In this document: positions 4,680-56,221 of the stretch, one piece after another | Layout of the letters: the number at the start of each line of letters is the position of its first letter | Numbering within the stretch: the stretch's first letter is position 1 | DNA from: Mesorhizobium sp. ORS 3324 | GTDB lineage: Bacteria > Pseudomonadota > Alphaproteobacteria > Rhizobiales > Rhizobiaceae | Reading direction: 5' to 3' | DNA: 64,000 nucleotides | Assembly: GCA_000824825.2 (NCBI GenBank) | Contig: LM655206.1 | Span: 78,873-142,872 of the forward strand | Made by a program: the position numbers and the translations under genes | The notes under the pieces: model-generated | Seen by the model: the letters and a program-made list of their open reading frames with translations, nothing else | What the model was told of the DNA's origin: nothing | The model's database searches: none

Positions 4680-5771
4680 TCAGCCGCGTGGCCCGCTGGA
4701 CAACGCGTTCGCCGCCAGCGCGGACTTGTGCTCGTCCTCAGGCTGTCCGTCCGGCCGCACCGAGAACTCGACCAGCACAGGCAGGTGATCCGAGCCGGTG
4801 TCTTCCAGCCGCGTCGCCGAATGGATCGTCACCCCGCCCTTGCTGAACACCTGGTCGATCGGCAGGCCTGCATAGCGCCGCAGGAAATCGGGCAATTTCC
4901 TGTAGATCCAGGTCGGCCCGGCCGATGGCATCACCGTCAGCCCGCCGAGCGCGGCGCCCCGCCGCACCGCCGCGCTCCACGGCACGGCGTTGCAATCGCC
5001 GGCCATGATCGCGGTTTCGCCGAGCGCGGCAAGCGGCGCCGCCAGCTCGCCGATCTGCCAGGACTGCTCGCGCGGCCAGGGCCAGCTCAAATGGATCGCG
5101 GCGACGTCGACGCCGGTGCCGCCGAAATCGATCGTGGCGGTCGCCATCGCGCCGCGCGGCTCGCAATGCGGCGCGGTGCCGGCGGCAAAGGGCCGCCGCG
5201 AGAGCAGGGCGACGCCGAATATGCCGTTGGGGTAGGGGCAGAGGATGCGGTACGGATAGGCGCTGGTGATGTAGCCGAGCTCTCTCGTCCACATTCCCGA
5301 CACCTCGTCGAGGGTGATCACATCAGGGTTGATGCGGCCGATCAGCGACAGCACCTTCTTCGGCGTCGGATTGTTGTAGCGGAGGTTCATCTGCAGCAGG
5401 CTGTAGACGATCCGGTCGGCGGGCCTCGCGACCGCCGGCTGCGGCCAGAGCCTGGGCAGGGCGCTCGCCGTTGTGACGAGGCAGGCGATGGAAAAGAGCA
5501 GCACAGCTGCCGCCTGCAGCCGATAGGAGCTGGCAAGCAGCGGCAGCGCCAGCAGCGCCGTGAGCACGCTCAGGTGGATGCGGAAATGCGAGAAGGAATC
5601 GAGGGCCGGATGCAGCCTGCCGAAGAAGCCGGCCAGCAGCGCGGCCGAGAGTGCCGTCATCGCCAGGAATGCCACCCCAGCCGTCATATTCCTGCGCGCG
5701 CCGCCTGTTGTCATCTCGGTCTTGGTCTGCCGATTGCCGCCGGCAATCTGTTCAGCCTGCTTATCGGCCAA
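4680..5771 (-). CDS. Membrane-anchored endonuclease/exonuclease/phosphatase family protein
   Basis: This 363-residue protein has an N-terminal membrane region (about residues 30-110, three hydrophobic segments) followed by a DNase I-like fold. Family landmarks are SLLQMNLRYNN (metal Asn), DVITLDEV (Asp/Glu), GDCNAVPWS (catalytic D-x-N) and the terminal GSDHLPVLVEF with the catalytic His. The active site therefore looks complete. The domain would face the periplasm if the N-terminus is cytoplasmic. Substrate is unknown; the family spans nucleases, phosphodiesterases and phospholipases. It ends 34 bp downstream of AMP nucleosidase on the same strand. Confidence 0.82.
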   Translation of the reverse strand: MADKQAEQIAGGNRQTKTEMTTGGARRNMTAGVAFLAMTALSAALLAGFFGRLHPALDSFSHFRIHLSVLTALLALPLLASSYRLQAAAVLLFSIACLVTTASALPRLWPQPAVARPADRIVYSLLQMNLRYNNPTPKKVLSLIGRINPDVITLDEVSGMWTRELGYITSAYPYRILCPYPNGIFGVALLSRRPFAAGTAPHCEPRGAMATATIDFGGTGVDVAAIHLSWPWPREQSWQIGELAAPLAALGETAIMAGDCNAVPWSAAVRRGAALGGLTVMPSAGPTWIYRKLPDFLRRYAGLPIDQVFSKGGVTIHSATRLEDTGSDHLPVLVEFSVRPDGQPEDEHKSALAANALSSGPRG

Positions 5772-5805
5772 ATTGCGGCTTAAGCAAATGACGGATTGCC
5801 CCGGC

Positions 5806-7308
5806 TTACTGGAAGGCTGTCTCGGAGAAGCTTCTGAGCTTGCGCGAATGCAGCCGCTCCATTGGCATTTCTGCCAGCTTCTCCATCGCCTTGATGCCGA
5901 TAGTGAGATGCTGCGCCACCTGCCGCTTGTAGAACTCGGTCGCCATGCCAGGCAGCTTCAATTCGCCGTGCAGCGGCTTGTCTGAGACGCAAAGCAGCGT
6001 CCCGTAGGGCACACGGAAGCGGAAGCCGTTGGCGGCGATCGTCGCCGATTCCATATCGAGCGCAATCGCCCGCGACTGCGACAGGCGCTGCACCGGGCCG
6101 CGCTGGTCGCGCAGTTCCCAGTTGCGGTTGTCGATGGTGGCGACGGTGCCTGTGCGCATGATGCGCTTGAGGTCGTAGCCGGATAGGCCCGTCACCTCGG
6201 CGACCGCCTCCTGCAGTGCCACCTGGATCTCGGCCAGCGGCGGAATCGGCACCCAGACCGGCAGGTCGTCGTCGAGCACGTGGTCCTCGCGCACATAGGC
6301 ATGCGCCAGCACATAGTCGCCCAGCGCCTGCGTGTTGCGCAGGCCGGCGCAATGGCCGAGCATCACCCAGGCATGCGGCCGAAGCACCGCTATATGGTCG
6401 GTGATGGTCTTGGCGTTGGACGGGCCGACACCGATGTTGACCATGGTGATGCCGCCATGGCCCGGCTTCTTCAGGTGATAGGCGGGCATCTGCGGCAGGC
6501 GCGGCGGCGGCGTGCCTTCGCTCGGCGTGCTGGCCCCGGCCATTGTCACCACATTGCCCGGCTCGACGAATTCGCTGTAGCCGCCACCGCCATTTGCCAT
6601 CAGGTCGCGGGCCCGCGCCACGAACTCGTCGATATAGAACTGGTAGTTGGTGAACAGCACGAAATTCTGGAAATGCTGCGGGCTGGTCGCCGTGTAGTGC
6701 GTCATGCGGTGCAGCGAATAGTCGATGCGCTGGGCGGTGAATGGCGCCAGCGGCCGCGGCTCGCCATAGGCCACCTCGAAGGTGCCGTTGGCAATCTGGT
6801 CGTCGGTGCCGTCGAGGTCCGGCACGTCGAACAGGTCGCGGATCGGCCGCTTGATGCGCTCGGCGGCGGCGCCGTCGACATAGGTACCTTCCAGAAAGGC
6901 GAAATGCAGCGGGATCGGCGTGGTCGATTCCGACACCGTGACCTGGATGCCGTGATTGCGCATGATCAGCCGAAGCTGCTCGACGAGATAGTTCTCGAAC
7001 AGCTGCGGCTGGGTGATGGTGGTGGCGAAATGCCCAGGCGTCGGCATATGGCCGTAGGCCTGGCGCGAGTCGATCTGCGTGAACGAGGTCGTGGTGACGC
7101 CGATCTGCGGATAAAAGGCCCGGTAGCGCTTGCTCTCGTCACCGCCGGCGGCCAGTTTGGCGAAGGACTCGCGCAGGAACTTGGTGTTGCGATCATAGAG
7201 CGCCTCGAGCGCCGCGACCGCCTTCTGGGCGTCGTCGAAACTTTGCCTGCCGAACGGCTCCGGCATGACGACCGATTCGATGGCTTGGGGGTAGATTCGC
7301 TTTTCCAT
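5806..7308 (-). CDS. amn: AMP nucleosidase
   Basis: The enzyme (EC 3.2.2.4) splits AMP into adenine and ribose 5-phosphate and helps set adenylate pools. The 500-residue protein has the N-terminal AMP-nucleosidase regulatory domain (about 1-180) and a C-terminal nucleoside-phosphorylase-like domain. The latter includes GHGGITMVNIGVGPSNAKT, MLGHCAGLRNTQALGDYVLAHAYVREDHVLDDDLP and ALDMESATIAANGFRFRVPYGTLLCVSDKPLHGE, all strongly family-like. The start at 7308 is the only good ATG near the N-terminal MEKRIYPQ sequence. It is followed on the same strand by the membrane phosphatase-like gene. Confidence 0.95.
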   Translation of the reverse strand: MEKRIYPQAIESVVMPEPFGRQSFDDAQKAVAALEALYDRNTKFLRESFAKLAAGGDESKRYRAFYPQIGVTTTSFTQIDSRQAYGHMPTPGHFATTITQPQLFENYLVEQLRLIMRNHGIQVTVSESTTPIPLHFAFLEGTYVDGAAAERIKRPIRDLFDVPDLDGTDDQIANGTFEVAYGEPRPLAPFTAQRIDYSLHRMTHYTATSPQHFQNFVLFTNYQFYIDEFVARARDLMANGGGGYSEFVEPGNVVTMAGASTPSEGTPPPRLPQMPAYHLKKPGHGGITMVNIGVGPSNAKTITDHIAVLRPHAWVMLGHCAGLRNTQALGDYVLAHAYVREDHVLDDDLPVWVPIPPLAEIQVALQEAVAEVTGLSGYDLKRIMRTGTVATIDNRNWELRDQRGPVQRLSQSRAIALDMESATIAANGFRFRVPYGTLLCVSDKPLHGELKLPGMATEFYKRQVAQHLTIGIKAMEKLAEMPMERLHSRKLRSFSETAFQ

Positions 7309-50986: not shown

Positions 50987-51229
50987 ATGCCGCTCTACAT
51001 CCGCGACGACGAGGTGGATGCGCTGGCCACGAAATTGCAGCGCGAGACAAATGCTCCGAGCAAGACCGAAGCGGTCCGGACCGCGCTTTTGCACGAGCTC
51101 GAGCGCAATCGCGCCCGCAAACCGCTGCGCGAAAGGATTGCCATTCTTCAGGCACAAGCTGCTGCACTGGGACCGTCCGATCCCAACTTCGACATGAAGG
51201 CGTTCATGGACGAGATGTGGGAGGACTGA
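50987..51229 (+). CDS. vapB: VapB-type antitoxin (Rv0623-like)
   Basis: The ATG at 50987 behind AGGAG gives 80 residues. MPLYIRDDEVDALATKLQRETNAPSKTEAVRTAL is the ribbon-helix-helix DNA-binding start of Rv0623-like antitoxins. The C-terminal AAALGPSDPNFDMKAFMDEMWED is the toxin-clasping tail. Its TGA shares one base with the vapC ATG (TGATG), the usual toxin-antitoxin coupling. It should neutralise the VapC toxin and repress its own operon through the paired sites upstream. Confidence 0.92.
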   Translation: MPLYIRDDEVDALATKLQRETNAPSKTEAVRTALLHELERNRARKPLRERIAILQAQAAALGPSDPNFDMKAFMDEMWED

Positions 51230-51645
51230 TGTTCATCGATGCGTCGGTCATCGTCGCAATTCTCGCTAAGGAGCCGGGCTGGGAAGAATTGCTCAGGCGG
51301 ATTGCCGGCGCCGATGGTCCGCTGCACGTCTCCGCGCTTGTCCGGCTTGAAGCCACGCTTGCCCTTGGCCGAGTGACCGCTGGTGCCAAAAAGCCGACCC
51401 CCGAAATGCTCTCCGCGGCACGCGATCTGGTCGACACTTTCGTGGTCGAAATCGACGCCCGCAATGTGCCTATCGATGAAGACATAGGCACGCGAGCCAG
51501 CGACGCCAGTATCCGCTACGGCAAGATGGTCGGTCATCCGGCCGATCTCAATCTAGGAGACTGCTTCGCCTACGCTTGCGCCAAGGCGCTCGACGTTCCG
51601 CTGCTCTACAAGGGCGGTGATTTTCTTCAGACAGATCTGGCATAA
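51229..51645 (+). CDS. vapC: VapC-type PIN-domain toxin
   Basis: The ATG at 51229 yields 138 residues. MFIDASVIVAILAKEPGWEE gives the first acidic residue of the PIN site. SALVRLEATLALGRV has the Glu, and NLGDCFAYACAKALDVPLLYKGGDF carries the later Asp residues. The four-acid RNase site is complete, so toxicity through RNA cleavage is likely, with tRNAs or rRNA as usual family targets. The in-frame upstream GTG-like start at 51217 would overlap vapB more and is less likely. The ECF sigma promoter lies 14 bp downstream. Confidence 0.92.
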   Translation: MFIDASVIVAILAKEPGWEELLRRIAGADGPLHVSALVRLEATLALGRVTAGAKKPTPEMLSAARDLVDTFVVEIDARNVPIDEDIGTRASDASIRYGKMVGHPADLNLGDCFAYACAKALDVPLLYKGGDFLQTDLA

Positions 51646-51684: not shown

Positions 51685-51793
51685 GTTAAGGTGCTTGGGT
51701 ACCGGAGCGGGTGGTCCGCTTCGCGCTGGCTGCTTGCGCCGCGCCGGAAAGGCGCGTTCAATCGAATGGAAAACGGCCTCGAAACAAGCGGTC

Positions 51794-52312
51794 ATGGACG
51801 ACAAGAAGGCAGCGATCCTGAGCGAAATACCGCGTCTGCGGCGCTATGCGCGCTCGCTGCTGCGCGATCGCGATTCCGCCGACGATCTCGTCCAGGACTG
51901 CCTGGAGCGGGCGCTTGTGCGGCTCGACAACTGGCAGACTGGAGAAAGCCCCAGGAGGTGGCTGTTTACGATCATGCATCATCTGTTCATCGACCAGATG
52001 CGCAAGGTTAACCGGCGCGGCGAGTCGGCGATGCTGCCGCTCGAAGCCGGCGAAGCCCAGGCTGCGCCCGCCGATCAGGTCGAAAGCATCGCTTCGCGCG
52101 AGATCATGGATGCGCTGCAGGCGATCAGCCCCGATCGCCGCGCGGCATTGGTCATGGTCGCCATCGAAGGCTTTTCCTACGCCGAGGCTGCCAACATCCT
52201 CGGCGTGCCGGCCGGCACGCTGATGTCGCGCATCGCGCGCGGGCGCGAGGAACTGCGCGGCCTGCTGGACGACTCCTCGCGCCGCCGCTCGATAAGGATC
52301 GTCGAGCGATGA
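51794..52312 (+). CDS. ECF-type RNA polymerase sigma factor
   Basis: The ATG at 51794 gives 172 residues. Region 2 reads RYARSLLRDRDSADDLVQDCLERALVRLDNWQ; region 4 reads ALQAISPDRRAALVMVAIEGFSYAEAANILGVPAGTLMSRIARGREELRGLL. The ATGA overlap with the next gene shows translational coupling to its anti-sigma factor. The frame is open upstream to 51617, but that extension runs through the promoter and lacks sigma features. The group of ECF factor cannot be fixed by eye. Confidence 0.92.
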   Translation: MDDKKAAILSEIPRLRRYARSLLRDRDSADDLVQDCLERALVRLDNWQTGESPRRWLFTIMHHLFIDQMRKVNRRGESAMLPLEAGEAQAAPADQVESIASREIMDALQAISPDRRAALVMVAIEGFSYAEAANILGVPAGTLMSRIARGREELRGLLDDSSRRRSIRIVER

Positions 52313-53103
52313 CCCGGCGCGATTTCACCGAACGCGACATCCACATGGCCCTCGACGGCGAGCTGCCGGGCGAGGAACGCATGGCTTATGAAGCCTGGCT
52401 CGAAGCCAATCCCGAGATGAAGGCGAAGAGCGCTCGCTACATCGCCGACCGCACGGCGCTGCGCGCCGCCTTGGCCGGCGTGATGGACGAGCCGGTGCCG
52501 GCGCGGCTCAAGGCAGCGGTGCTCGGCGAAGCGCCGGCGAAGACGTCTGCCTGGCGTTCGCGCTGGTGGCTTTCGGCGGCGGCCGCCGTCGTGCTGATGG
52601 TCGGCGGCTTCGGCGGCTATGTCGCCGGCATTGGCGGCATCGGCCGAAGCGATGACGGCGACGAGCAGCTCGCCGAGCAGGCGATCGCCGCCCATGTCAT
52701 CTACGCCGGCGAGAAACGTCACGCGGTAGAGGTGCCGGCGAGCGACAAGGACCACCTTCAGACATGGCTGTCCAACCGGGTTGGGCTGAAGCTGGTGGCG
52801 CCCGACCTCGTGGCCGAGGGTTTCGAGCTCGTCGGCGGCCGGCTGCTGCCTTCGGGCGAGCACGGCAAGGCCGCGATGCTGCTTTATGAGGACGCCAAGG
52901 GCGAGCGCATCTCGCTCTTCGTCACCGCCGAATCGTCCGCGACCGCCAAGGGCACTTATGCGGCCGAGGCGGGCGGACCCGAAGCGGTCTATTGGCTGGA
53001 CAAAGGCTATGGCTGCGCCGTCGTCGGCGCACTGCCGCGCGAGCGCCTGTCGGAGGTCGCCAAGAGCGCCTACGGCCAGCTTGTGGCCGGTATTTCGGGT
53101 TGA
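52309..53103 (+). CDS. Membrane anti-sigma factor of the ECF pair
   Basis: The 264-residue product begins MTRRDFTERDIHMALDGELPGEERMAYEAWLEANPEM, a cytoplasmic anti-sigma domain of the kind found in FecR-like or RskA-like regulators. The HxxxCxxC zinc motif is absent, so it is not of the redox-sensing zinc type. A single membrane span lies at about 83-105 (WWLSAAAAVVLMVGGFGGYVAGI). The periplasmic part (about 160 residues) has RHAVEVPASDKDHLQTWLSNRVG and GYGCAVVGALPRERL. It should hold the sigma factor inactive until a signal reaches the periplasmic domain. Confidence 0.85.
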   Translation: MTRRDFTERDIHMALDGELPGEERMAYEAWLEANPEMKAKSARYIADRTALRAALAGVMDEPVPARLKAAVLGEAPAKTSAWRSRWWLSAAAAVVLMVGGFGGYVAGIGGIGRSDDGDEQLAEQAIAAHVIYAGEKRHAVEVPASDKDHLQTWLSNRVGLKLVAPDLVAEGFELVGGRLLPSGEHGKAAMLLYEDAKGERISLFVTAESSATAKGTYAAEAGGPEAVYWLDKGYGCAVVGALPRERLSEVAKSAYGQLVAGISG

Positions 53104-53227: not shown

Positions 53228-53353
53228 ATGAATACCGGCGCTTCGGCCGGGTGTTGCTTTTTGACCGGGGCCGTTTCCTTAAATCCAATCGAGGATCTCC
53301 CAAGCCCGCATGCCTGCCGAGATTCGCAAGGCCCGCGCGTCAGACGTCGATGA
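53228..53353 (+). CDS. Possible 41-residue leader or precursor peptide upstream of the GNAT-C39 gene
   Basis: An ATG at 53228 with AAGGAG at 53210-53215 starts a 41-codon frame that ends inside the next gene (TGA 53351-53353). The peptide begins MNTGASAGCCFLTGAVSLNP and ends RVRRR. The GNAT-C39 gene itself has only a weak, distant GAGGA site, so this small frame could couple translation to it. It could also be the substrate or a leader for the peptidase. It has no recognised family and may be chance. I give it mainly because of the ribosome-binding site and its place. Confidence 0.3.
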   Translation: MNTGASAGCCFLTGAVSLNPIEDLPSPHACRDSQGPRVRRR

Positions 53354-54407
53354 CCTCGCCGCCATCGAGAAGGCCGTCTTCTCGGGCGACCGGCTTTCCC
53401 GCCGCTCCTTTCGTCAGTTCATCGAGCGCGAGACCGCCGAGATGCTGGTGGCCGAAAATGACCGCCATGTCGCCGGCTACGCGGTGGTGCTGTTTCGCAA
53501 GGGCAGTGGCGTGGCCCGGCTCTACTCCATCGCCGTCGGTCCCTTCTTCAGCCGCCTTGGCATTGGCCGCCGGCTGCTGGCCGCGGCCGAGGAGGCAGCC
53601 TATGAGCACGGCCGCATGATGCTGAGGCTCGAGGTGCGCGAGGACAATCAGCGCGCTATCCGCATCTACGAGCAGGCCGGCTACCGCAAGATAGGCCGCG
53701 AGCCCGACTATTACGAGGATGGTGCCACCGCGCTGCGCTACGAAAAGACGCTGCGCGGCGAGGCTCCGATCGCCACCCGGGTGCCGTTCTACCAGCAGAC
53801 CTGCGAATTCACCTGCGGCCCGTGCTGTCTGATGATGGCGATGGCGAATTTCGACCGCGATTTCGTACCCGACCCGGTCATGGAAATCCGCCTGTGGCGC
53901 GAGGCGACCACCGTCTTCATGATGTCTGGGCCGGGCGGCTGCGAGCCTTTCGGCCTGGCGGTGGCCGGCTATGAAAGCGGGCTTGCCGCGGAGGTATTCG
54001 TGTCCTTCTACGGCGCGCTCTTCCTGCAGTCGGTGCGCAGCGCGGACAAGCGCCGGGTGATGGAGCTCGCCCAGGTCGACTTCCGCCACAGAGCGGAACT
54101 TTACGGCATTCCGGTGAACTACCGTCCGTTCGGTATCGACGATATCCGCACGGCCCTTGCCGAGGGCAAGCTGGTGCTGGTGCTGATCAGCGGCTTCCTG
54201 ATGTTCGGCAAGAAGGTGCCGCATTGGGTGCTCGCCATCGGCGACGACGGCGACCATATTCTGATCCACGATCCCTGGGTCGAGGATGAAAGGCAGGAGA
54301 CGATCCTCGATGCCGCCAACATTCCCGTGCCCTATGGCATCTTCATGAACATGGCTCAGTTCGGCCGCGACGGATTGCGCGCCGCCATCACTCTGGGAAA
54401 ACGCTGA
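53310..54407 (+). CDS. GNAT acetyltransferase fused to C39-type cysteine peptidase
   Basis: This 365-residue fusion has two domains. Residues 1-148 form a GNAT fold, with acetyl-CoA loop FSRLGIGRRLLAAAEEAA and RLEVREDNQRAIRIYEQAGYRKIG. Residues 155-340 resemble the C39 papain-like peptidase. They show Gln162/163 (oxyanion hole) and Cys169 in QTCEFTCGPCC, then His305 in PHWVLAIGDD and Asp321 in IHDPWVE, giving a complete Cys-His-Asp set. C39 domains cut double-glycine leaders in bacteriocin exporters. Here there is no ABC transporter. The RLAN/ATP-grasp gene starts 3 bp after its stop. Similar gene neighbourhoods have been proposed to make or modify peptides by amide ligation. Confidence 0.9.
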   Translation: MPAEIRKARASDVDDLAAIEKAVFSGDRLSRRSFRQFIERETAEMLVAENDRHVAGYAVVLFRKGSGVARLYSIAVGPFFSRLGIGRRLLAAAEEAAYEHGRMMLRLEVREDNQRAIRIYEQAGYRKIGREPDYYEDGATALRYEKTLRGEAPIATRVPFYQQTCEFTCGPCCLMMAMANFDRDFVPDPVMEIRLWREATTVFMMSGPGGCEPFGLAVAGYESGLAAEVFVSFYGALFLQSVRSADKRRVMELAQVDFRHRAELYGIPVNYRPFGIDDIRTALAEGKLVLVLISGFLMFGKKVPHWVLAIGDDGDHILIHDPWVEDERQETILDAANIPVPYGIFMNMAQFGRDGLRAAITLGKR

Positions 54408-54410
54408 AAC

Positions 54411-55874
54411 ATGACCTGGGTCATCCTCACAGGCAGGCAGAACGACCTCGACCAGGTGGCGACGCCGCACAAGATCATCACCAACCGCGACTACCTCGCG
54501 CATCCGGCACTGTTTCGCGGCCAGCGGCCGAAGGTCATCAACCTGTCGAACAATTACGGCTACCAGAGCCGCGGCTACTATGCCTCGCTGCTCGCCGGAT
54601 CGCGCGGCCACAAGGTGATCCCGACCGTCGAGACCATGATCGACCTGTCGGAGCGCAAGCTCTACGAGCACGCTCTGCCGGAACTCGAGCTCGCGCTCAA
54701 CAAATGCCGCAAGGATCTTGGCGGAACCTTCCCGTCGAAGGTCGCCGTCTTCTTCGGCATCGGGCCGTCGAAGGTATGGGACCGGTTCACCAAACTGTTG
54801 TTCGACTGGTTCCGAGCGCCGGCGCTAGAGGTCCATATCAAGGACAGCGCCGAATGGGCCTCGATCCGCAAGATCGGCTTCCTGCCGCTCGCCCGCATGA
54901 CCGAGGAGGAGGAAAAAGTCTTCCTGCAATGCCTGGAAACCTACACCAACCGCGAATGGCGAGACACCAAGGGCCGTACGCCCGCGCGCTACACGTTCGC
55001 GACGCTGGTCGATCCGCATGAGGAATTGCCGCCCTCGGAAATTTCCTCGCTCCGCTATTGGGCCAGGATCGCCGAGAAGATGGGCGTCGAAGTCGAGCCG
55101 ATCACCAGGAAGGACTTGGCCAAGCTCGCCAACTACGACGCGCTGTTCATCCGCGAGACCACGTCCATATCCAACCACACCTACCGTTTCGCGCGCCGTG
55201 CCCAGCAGGAAGGCATGCCGGTGATCGACGATCCGCTGTCGATGATCCGCTGCACCAACAAGGTCTATCTCAACGAGCTGATGACCTACAACAAGGTGCC
55301 GGTGCCGCCGACGGTGATGATCGCCGGCCCTTCGGATCTGGAGCTTGCGGCGCAGACGCTGGGCTTTCCGCTGGTGTTGAAGATACCGGACTCCTCCTTC
55401 TCGCGCGGCGTCAAGAAATGCGAGACCCTCGCCGAGCTGACAAAGCTCGCGACCGAGTGGCTGGAGGATTCCGACCTCCTCATCGCGCAGAAATTCATCC
55501 CGACCGAATATGACTGGCGCGTCGGCGTGCTCGGCGGCCAGCCGCTGTTTGCCGTCCATTATCTGATGGCCAAGAAGCACTGGCAGATCGTCAATCACAA
55601 GGCCAACGGCAAGCCCGACCAGGGCGGCATCAAGACCTTCACGCTGAAGGAGACGCCGCCGCATGTCGTCGAGACGGCGGTCAAGGCGGCGCGCTGCATC
55701 GGCGACGGTCTCTACGGCGTCGACCTCAAGGAAACCAAGGACGGCGTCTTCGTCATCGAGGTCAACGACAACCCCAATCTCGACCATGGCTGGGAGGATT
55801 CCGGCGAGAAGGACGAGGTCTGGGTGCGGCTGACGCAATGGTTCCTGGAGCGCCTGGAGCGTACGGGCCGCTAG
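54411..55874 (+). CDS. RLAN-domain RimK-like ATP-grasp ligase
   Basis: This 487-residue protein has an N-terminal RLAN domain (about 1-160: PKVINLSNNYGYQSRGYYASLLAGSRGHKVIP). The ATP-grasp core is at about 265-485: DDPLSMIRCTNKVYLNELM, PLVLKIPDSSFSRGVKKC, AQKFIPTEYDWRVGVLGGQPLFAVHY, and VFVIEVNDNPNLDHG. Metal ligands include Glu450 and Asn452. RimK-like enzymes ligate amino acids to protein or peptide termini through an acyl-phosphate. Here the partner is the GNAT-C39 protein, whose stop codon lies 3 bp upstream. The substrate is unknown. No ribosomal protein S6 gene is near, so classical RimK function is unlikely. Confidence 0.92.
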   Translation: MTWVILTGRQNDLDQVATPHKIITNRDYLAHPALFRGQRPKVINLSNNYGYQSRGYYASLLAGSRGHKVIPTVETMIDLSERKLYEHALPELELALNKCRKDLGGTFPSKVAVFFGIGPSKVWDRFTKLLFDWFRAPALEVHIKDSAEWASIRKIGFLPLARMTEEEEKVFLQCLETYTNREWRDTKGRTPARYTFATLVDPHEELPPSEISSLRYWARIAEKMGVEVEPITRKDLAKLANYDALFIRETTSISNHTYRFARRAQQEGMPVIDDPLSMIRCTNKVYLNELMTYNKVPVPPTVMIAGPSDLELAAQTLGFPLVLKIPDSSFSRGVKKCETLAELTKLATEWLEDSDLLIAQKFIPTEYDWRVGVLGGQPLFAVHYLMAKKHWQIVNHKANGKPDQGGIKTFTLKETPPHVVETAVKAARCIGDGLYGVDLKETKDGVFVIEVNDNPNLDHGWEDSGEKDEVWVRLTQWFLERLERTGR

Positions 55875-55948
55875 AGCATTCGCAGCCAGGCGGGATCGCC
55901 CGGCGTCGCTGAAATGCGGCCAAAGACAATCATCCGAATGGGGGCAAG

Positions 55949-56221
55949 ATGCTGTTTTTCGTGATCGAGGATTTTCGCGGCTGCGATCGCAAGGAGATCT
56001 ACCGGCGTTTCCGCGACCGGGGCCGGCTGAAGCCCGATCAGCTCGTCGTCCATCACAGCTGGATCGCAGGCGACATGAGCCGCTGCTTCCTCCTTGTCGA
56101 GGCCGACGATGTCACGCTGCTGCAGCGCTGGGTCATCGAATGGGCGGATCTGGTGGAGTTCGAGATCGTCCCGGTGGCGACGAACAAGGACATGGTCGCG
56201 GCGTTGAGCGACCACCTCTGA
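55949..56221 (+). CDS. DUF3303 family small protein
   Basis: The 90-residue product begins MLFFVIEDFRGCDRKEIYRRFRDRGRLKP and contains LVVHHSWIAGDMSRCFLLVEADDVTLLQRWVIEWADLVEFEIVPV, which fits DUF3303. The fold is a small dimeric alpha/beta barrel-like module with no known activity. It starts 74 bp after the ATP-grasp gene in the same direction, so co-transcription is possible, and it converges with lysR 12 bp downstream. Whether it belongs to the peptide-ligase locus is open. Confidence 0.85.
   Translation: MLFFVIEDFRGCDRKEIYRRFRDRGRLKPDQLVVHHSWIAGDMSRCFLLVEADDVTLLQRWVIEWADLVEFEIVPVATNKDMVAALSDHL

Follow-up and report, generated by a model that had tools for sequence, protein, structure and literature searches.

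Conservation of a GNAT acetyltransferase and an RLAN/RimK-like ATP-grasp ligase as a two-gene unit in bacteria, with relatives on viral contigs

In Mesorhizobium sp. ORS 3324 (GenBank assembly GCA_000824825.2), a gene encoding a GNAT acetyltransferase fused to a DUF3335 (C39-like) domain is found directly ahead of a gene encoding an RLAN/RimK-like ATP-grasp ligase. The two genes lie in a 64,000-nucleotide stretch of contig LM655206.1 (positions 78,873 to 142,872), called the window here, at positions 53310–54407 (365 aa) and 54411–55874 (487 aa), with 3 bases between the stop codon of the first and the ATG of the second. These and the other features of the locus given below are on the + strand. 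Comparison of the locus with its relatives revealed that the conserved unit is the GNAT together with the ligase, and that the C39-like domain and a DUF3303 gene downstream are dispensable. There is good support for a carboxylate-amine ligase that works together with an alpha-amine acetyltransferase, and we tentatively favour a role for this two-enzyme unit in making a small N-acetylated peptide, with the C39-like domain as an accessory.

A GNAT adjoins RLAN in all 80 named loci, which are the top-ranking ones among at least 585 and are skewed towards relatives of the window. When open reading frames (ORFs) of at least 70 aa from these loci and the window were clustered, the families present at every locus were the GNAT, the ligase, and ORFs that overlap these two genes or lie antisense to them. 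After these, the most widespread real neighbour family reached 11 loci. RLAN was present in 49 of the 249 genomes of a phylum sample, about one in five. Among the 31 loci taken from the RLAN genomes of this sample and from the window's own genome (L002–L031 being the best 30 of 52 places), a gene matching the GNAT fusion lies next to RLAN at 30; in one of these (L027) the contig starts inside the gene and the C39 half alone is visible. The locus without such a match is L004. To avoid a choice based on similarity, every RLAN match was taken from a class sample of 289 Alphaproteobacteria that includes the window's own genome. The 34 matches, one of them in the window, fall in 33 of these genomes, about one in ten, and a GNAT was beside or fused to RLAN at 33 of the 34. 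The sole exception (L196, genome G513) is cut off by the end of its contig; the missing remainder of its gene is probably the piece found in L207, which has its GNAT.

DUF3335 was found in 26 genomes of the class sample, 21 of which also contain RLAN (Fisher p 4e-19), and the two lie within about 1 kb of each other in 20 of these 21. This association exceeds chance. In one genome (G247), GNAT, RLAN and ATP-grasp are joined in a single 659-aa chain (L182, 4553–6532, - strand), which is convergent to a separate GNAT-DUF3335 gene.

Related ligases were also found at eight loci on viral contigs. Four of these (L125–L128) carry a GNAT and a ligase lacking RLAN, at about 5540–6900, with the GNAT reading frame overlapping the ligase start. 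Phage genes (baseplate, integrase, endolysin, Sak4-like) are nearby in L125, L126 and L128, and L127 has a weak PHROG match only. As these four contigs manage with the GNAT and the RLAN-less ligase, no further linked gene is needed in the viral form. In L123 and L124 the ligase stands without a GNAT, that of L124 sitting between terminase and portal genes, and L129 is a fragment. No close relative was found in named phages, as 20 INPHARED records were all below 30 % identity with none covering 80 %. On an 83-kb viral contig (L130), a ligase at 5998–7158 has a partial RLAN (60 of 150 positions) and no GNAT match, and is followed by a DHH-family gene.

Ligases spanning at least 80 % of the query were seen in 11 plasmid records. 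These include NZ_CP133752.1, NZ_LR134436.1 and Azospirillum replicons; one of the 11 is from Pseudomonas aeruginosa and one from Legionella adelaidensis. In addition, two contigs of metagenome-assembled genomes labelled Acidobacteria (L093 and L106) have ligases that are nested in the Hyphomonas clade with very short branch lengths. Mis-binning of the contigs or a very recent transfer is the probable reason.

The C39-like domain is present in only part of this distribution. When the form was scored by ORF length, the fusion was found in 49 of the 80 named loci and the GNAT alone in the other 31, and DUF3335 was beside the pair in 20 of the 33 RLAN genomes of the class sample but not in 13. DUF3335 was found nowhere in 22 of 23 GNAT-only genomes, though completeness is given for only six of the 23 and some of these absences may be gaps. 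The domain was therefore rejected as an essential part. In the remaining GNAT-only genome (G146), a second RLAN locus bears the fusion. Genome G490 has a GNAT-only pair alongside stand-alone DUF3335 genes elsewhere, and stand-alone DUF3335 with no RLAN anywhere in the genome was found in five of the 26 class-sample genomes that have DUF3335.

Quick trees, with support from the Shimodaira–Hasegawa-like approximate likelihood ratio test (SH-aLRT) only, were built from 88 of the 110 loci that have a neighbouring match, plus the window (89 rows). At least 15 changes of state between the fusion and GNAT-only forms were required on the ligase tree and 4 on the GNAT tree, a difference that could reflect gene swapping. 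Vertical descent was not rejected in an approximately unbiased (AU) test on 20 Rhizobiaceae/Phyllobacteriaceae rows (p 0.548). Loss of the C39-like domain is favoured over gene replacement as the origin of the GNAT-only form, because the fusion point never differs. Two Pseudomonas loci with ligases that are close on the tree (L107 and L111) have the domain on one GNAT and not on the other, a recent natural loss.

Where the domain is present, its putative catalytic residues are conserved. It occupies residues 158–362 of the fusion (53781–54395; PF11814, E 1.2e-75, 253.9 bits, cut-off 25), and Cys169 (53814–53816), His305 (54222–54224) and Asp321 (54270–54272) were invariant in all 32 rows of an alignment of 31 of the 49 named fusions and the window. 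In a second alignment of 11 more diverse rows, one (L021) has Glu instead of Asp321. In the AlphaFold model of the fusion (mean predicted local distance difference test score, pLDDT, 88.2; predicted template modelling score, pTM, 0.78), Cys169 opens a helix (169–181), His305 is within a strand (304–312) and Asp321 follows a strand (316–320). The Cys-His-Asp triad is in papain order, at the expected helix and strand positions of the model. An earlier sequence-only reading of the window had called the domain a C39-type peptidase with these three residues in place. The residues are there but the family is not, as the score against true Peptidase_C39 (PF03412) was 17.6 bits with a cut-off of 22, and the domain belongs to DUF3335 ('Peptidase_C39 like'). 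A C39 bacteriocin-processing peptidase was rejected on the same score, and no conserved transporter was found beside the pair. No solved DUF3335 relative was detected by sequence (best E 0.34), and a fold search with the fusion model gave none, the result lists being filled by GNATs. A parallel with the actin maturation protease was considered and dropped.

Extra DUF3335 copies were observed in a few Mesorhizobium genomes, at L132 5133–6194 (-) and 14189–15397 (+), L133 5087–6226, L134 5696–6790 and L137 5972–6886. There was no RLAN match in these stretches. The N-terminal half of the copies is degenerate, with Cys, His and Asp kept when examined by eye, and their neighbours resemble solute-binding, ABC-transporter and TonB-type proteins, judged from sequence alone.

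The DUF3303 gene (90 aa, 55949–56221; PF11746, E 5.6e-27) was found in 13 of the 80 named loci, in each of which the ligase shares at least 94 % identity with that of the window, and in none of a further set of 34 loci. It was rejected as a third component and is judged to be a hitchhiking neighbour outside the system. The sequence-only reading had envisaged three products acting together, a proposal that is not supported, given these counts and the 31 named loci without a C39-like domain. The narrower view that the GNAT and a peptide-forming type of ligase act together is supported by their adjacency in every named locus, their fusion in one genome and their pairing in four viral contigs. The two outcomes that reading had named as counting against it, a pairing limited to this genome and frequent loss of Cys and His, were not seen, but the C39-like domain as a whole is often absent.

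The GNAT domain (residues 1–149, 53310–53756) matches PF00583 (E 3.9e-17, 63 bits, cut-off 20.7). In the fold search its model came closest to Ard1 (4pv6; Z 22.9, root mean square deviation, rmsd, 1.5 over 147 residues), followed by RimI (2cnm; Z 22.6, rmsd 1.6 over 145), while small-molecule acetyltransferases reached Z about 20. E108, Y120 and Y134-Y135 align with RimI E103, Y115 and the RimI YY motif, E103 and Y115 having catalytic roles in RimI. Beside the ligase, E108 and Y135 are kept in all 108 bacterial GNATs, Y120 in 104 (Phe in 4) and Y134 in 103 (Phe in 5). The four viral GNATs keep Y120, Y134 and Y135, and residue 108 is Glu in three and Asp in one. In four Mesorhizobium paralogs that have DUF3335 and no RLAN nearby, E108, Y120 and Y135 are lost in every case and Y134 aligns in two; a fifth such paralog (L137) is outside this alignment. 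Against the RimI family (TIGR01575, cut-off 86.4 bits), the GNAT scored 84.9 bits with the 365-aa protein and 87.6 in the genome search. Another protein of the same genome is RimI-like, at 88.8 bits.

The ligase consists of an RLAN domain (residues 26–172, 54486–54926; PF14401, E 1.6e-37, 128.9 bits, cut-off 25) and an ATP-grasp module (residues 194–484, 54990–55862; PF08443, E 2.1e-10, 41 bits, cut-off 21). The nearest fold to its model (mean pLDDT 89.2, pTM 0.61; residues 191–487 searched) is LysX (3vpd; Z 28.4, rmsd 2.4 over 268 residues, 195–484), followed by ArgX with LysW (Z 28.0), RimK (Z 27.1) and D-Ala ligases (Z 24). E450 (55758–55760) and N452 (55764–55766) align with the EVN motif that RimK and LysX share and are invariant in all 35 rows of an alignment of 34 loci and the window. 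Membership of the RimK family (TIGR00768) was rejected, with scores of 86.0 and 87.4 bits and a cut-off of 143.4. A synthetase of N-acetylglutaminylglutamine amide (NAGGN; TIGR03103) was likewise rejected, with a score of 23.5 bits at the locus and of 34 for the best protein of the genome, the cut-off being 569.

In the small-peptide reading, the GNAT would place an acetyl group on the alpha-amine of a short peptide or an amino acid. The RLAN ATP-grasp ligase would use ATP to phosphorylate a carboxylate, which it would then couple to another amino acid at the amine. The C39-like domain, in certain lineages only, would trim or hydrolyse the precursor or the product, and its dispensability is as expected for a trimming or turnover step. 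The reaction, the order of its steps and a product that is small and free are all put forward tentatively. This reading is preferred for three reasons: no linked target, carrier or precursor was found, the GNAT–ligase pair suffices on viral contigs, and the same parts occur in two known pathways, described below. Among 815 ORFs of 20–80 aa within 1 kb of 44 loci, no widely common candidate for a carrier or precursor was seen, the widest set covering six loci of one local synteny group. No linked precursor of the kind that goes with a graspetide ligase, or another ligase of ribosomally synthesized and post-translationally modified peptides, was seen in this set. The retention of E108 and Y135 beside ligases, and their loss in paralogs without RLAN, was also counted in favour of a small peptide. 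Several observations weigh on the other side. The best folds for both proteins act on protein ends (Ard1 and RimI; LysX, ArgX with LysW, and RimK), and the YY motif is common with RimI. A free product predicts a transporter or a gene for its use in some loci, and none is conserved in the 80 loci and the window. In addition, one RLAN gene (L131, the same as L004, genome G193) has no GNAT match within about 7 kb in a 16-kb stretch.

The same folds, and the sequence neighbours, suggest that the pair may instead tag a protein. The ligase would extend the C-terminus of one cellular protein, in the manner of RimK with S6 and LysX/ArgX with LysW, the GNAT would acetylate the N-terminus of that protein or of a partner, and the tag would be removed or the substrate cut by the C39-like domain. 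The GNAT scores close to the RimI cut-off are in line with this, but the ligase is far below the RimK-family cut-off, no target or carrier gene accompanies the pair, and a host target would be required for the pairs on viral contigs. The lead of the protein-end enzymes in the fold searches is only moderate (22.9 versus about 20 for the GNAT, 28.4 versus 24 for the ligase). Tagging is a real possibility but a lesser one, and because the folds lean towards a protein substrate the small peptide is placed only a little ahead of it.

Two further readings give the papain-like domain a leading part. It could be a transferase instead of a peptidase, attaching an acyl or aminoacyl group to what the ligase makes, like the papain-like BtrH and phytochelatin synthase. 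A passage of PMC10318531 places DUF3335 close to Guanylate_cyc_2 and clusters it with BtrH_N and phytochelatin synthase, and the stand-alone DUF3335 genes in genomes without RLAN are consistent with an activity of this kind. Nevertheless, neither the sequence nor the fold searches gave a solved relative, and the domain is missing from 31 of the 80 loci, making this reading improbable. Slightly less probable again is that the domain exposes a new protein N-terminus which the fused GNAT acetylates, with the ligase acting separately. A peptidase and an N-terminal-type acetyltransferase do share one chain in the 49 named fusions. However, the GNAT persists without the domain in the other 31 loci, almost all GNAT-only genomes have no DUF3335 elsewhere, and both the natural fusion of the GNAT in G247 and its phage pairing are with the ligase.

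GNAT-DUF3335 fusions beside RLAN ATP-grasp ligases were reportedly described by Iyer et al. in 2009 (10.1039/b917682a), with a peptide-ligase role predicted. The class is reported to have the domain set seen here, with RLAN N-terminal to a RimK-like ATP-grasp and an adjoining GNAT fused to DUF3335; what differs here is the dispensability of C39 and DUF3303, the GNAT–ligase core, the phage form and the three-domain fusion. The tie between these fusions and peptide ligases is already in print, in a passage of PMC10318531 that cites Iyer et al. 2009 as its ref. 74. For other ATP-grasp families, linkage to GNATs is described in part of PMC4431377, which also proposes acyl capping of ligase products. 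In the open-licence literature, to which the search was confined with subscription papers outside it, no experimental paper on the GNAT–ligase pair was found, nor any account of the viral pair, of the fusion of three domains or of a C39 domain that can be dispensed with.

In the NAGGN operon (Ngg, AsnO and a peptidase), Ngg acetylates and joins two glutamines in one protein, and a peptidase gene is part of the operon, according to a section of PMC8070244. GNAT and ligase activities and a peptidase gene alongside are common to both systems, and the single chain in G247 resembles Ngg in that one protein would do both steps. In contrast, the Mesorhizobium GNAT and ligase are two proteins, the conserved neighbours of the pair do not include an amidotransferase family, and no protein of the genome is above the TIGR03103 cut-off. 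The animal acetyltransferase NAT8L is also a GNAT, and no RLAN domain is known in the animal enzymes of N-acetylaspartylglutamate (NAAG). In that pathway, NAT8L, the RimK-like ligases RIMKLA/B and the peptidase GCPII act on one N-acetyl dipeptide, as set out in parts of PMC8836185 and PMC4842284. The NAAG genes are eukaryotic and unlinked, and the likeness is one of parts. RimI and RimK/LysX/ArgX share the nearest folds and active-site residues with the pair, but the genome has another RimI-like protein, and the ligase is under the RimK cut-off and bears an RLAN domain.

Gene order, lengths and residues of the GNAT-C39, ligase and DUF3303 genes were confirmed with the ORF list and Pfam as the sequence-only reading gave them, except that it began the locus at 53228, whereas the ATG for the 365-residue protein is at 53310. 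Directly upstream on the same strand, 51758–53103 contains an ECF (extracytoplasmic function) sigma factor gene (Pfam) and a putative anti-sigma gene, whose name comes from weak matches only, and a PIN-domain gene (Pfam) is at 51217–51645. ORF clustering did not find the PIN, ECF sigma and anti-sigma genes as conserved neighbours outside the window's close relatives. Downstream of DUF3303, a LysR regulator gene is on the opposite strand. Here and at the other loci, neighbours not named by Pfam, PHROGs or NCBIfam were named by reading their sequence.

The GNAT and ligase form a two-gene unit that is wide in bacteria, with viral relatives, and for which no product is described in the open-licence literature searched. 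Separation of this core from the optional C39-like domain and DUF3303 guides the choice of genes for expression and the class of compound to seek. More speculatively, the GNAT and ATP-grasp ligase may make up a pathway, compact and mobile, that yields an N-acetylated peptide not yet described and distinct from NAGGN and NAAG, though this broader picture is rather doubtful. RLAN and an optional dedicated hydrolase would have been added in bacteria, and the bare pair carried by temperate phages would perhaps alter host physiology or signalling.

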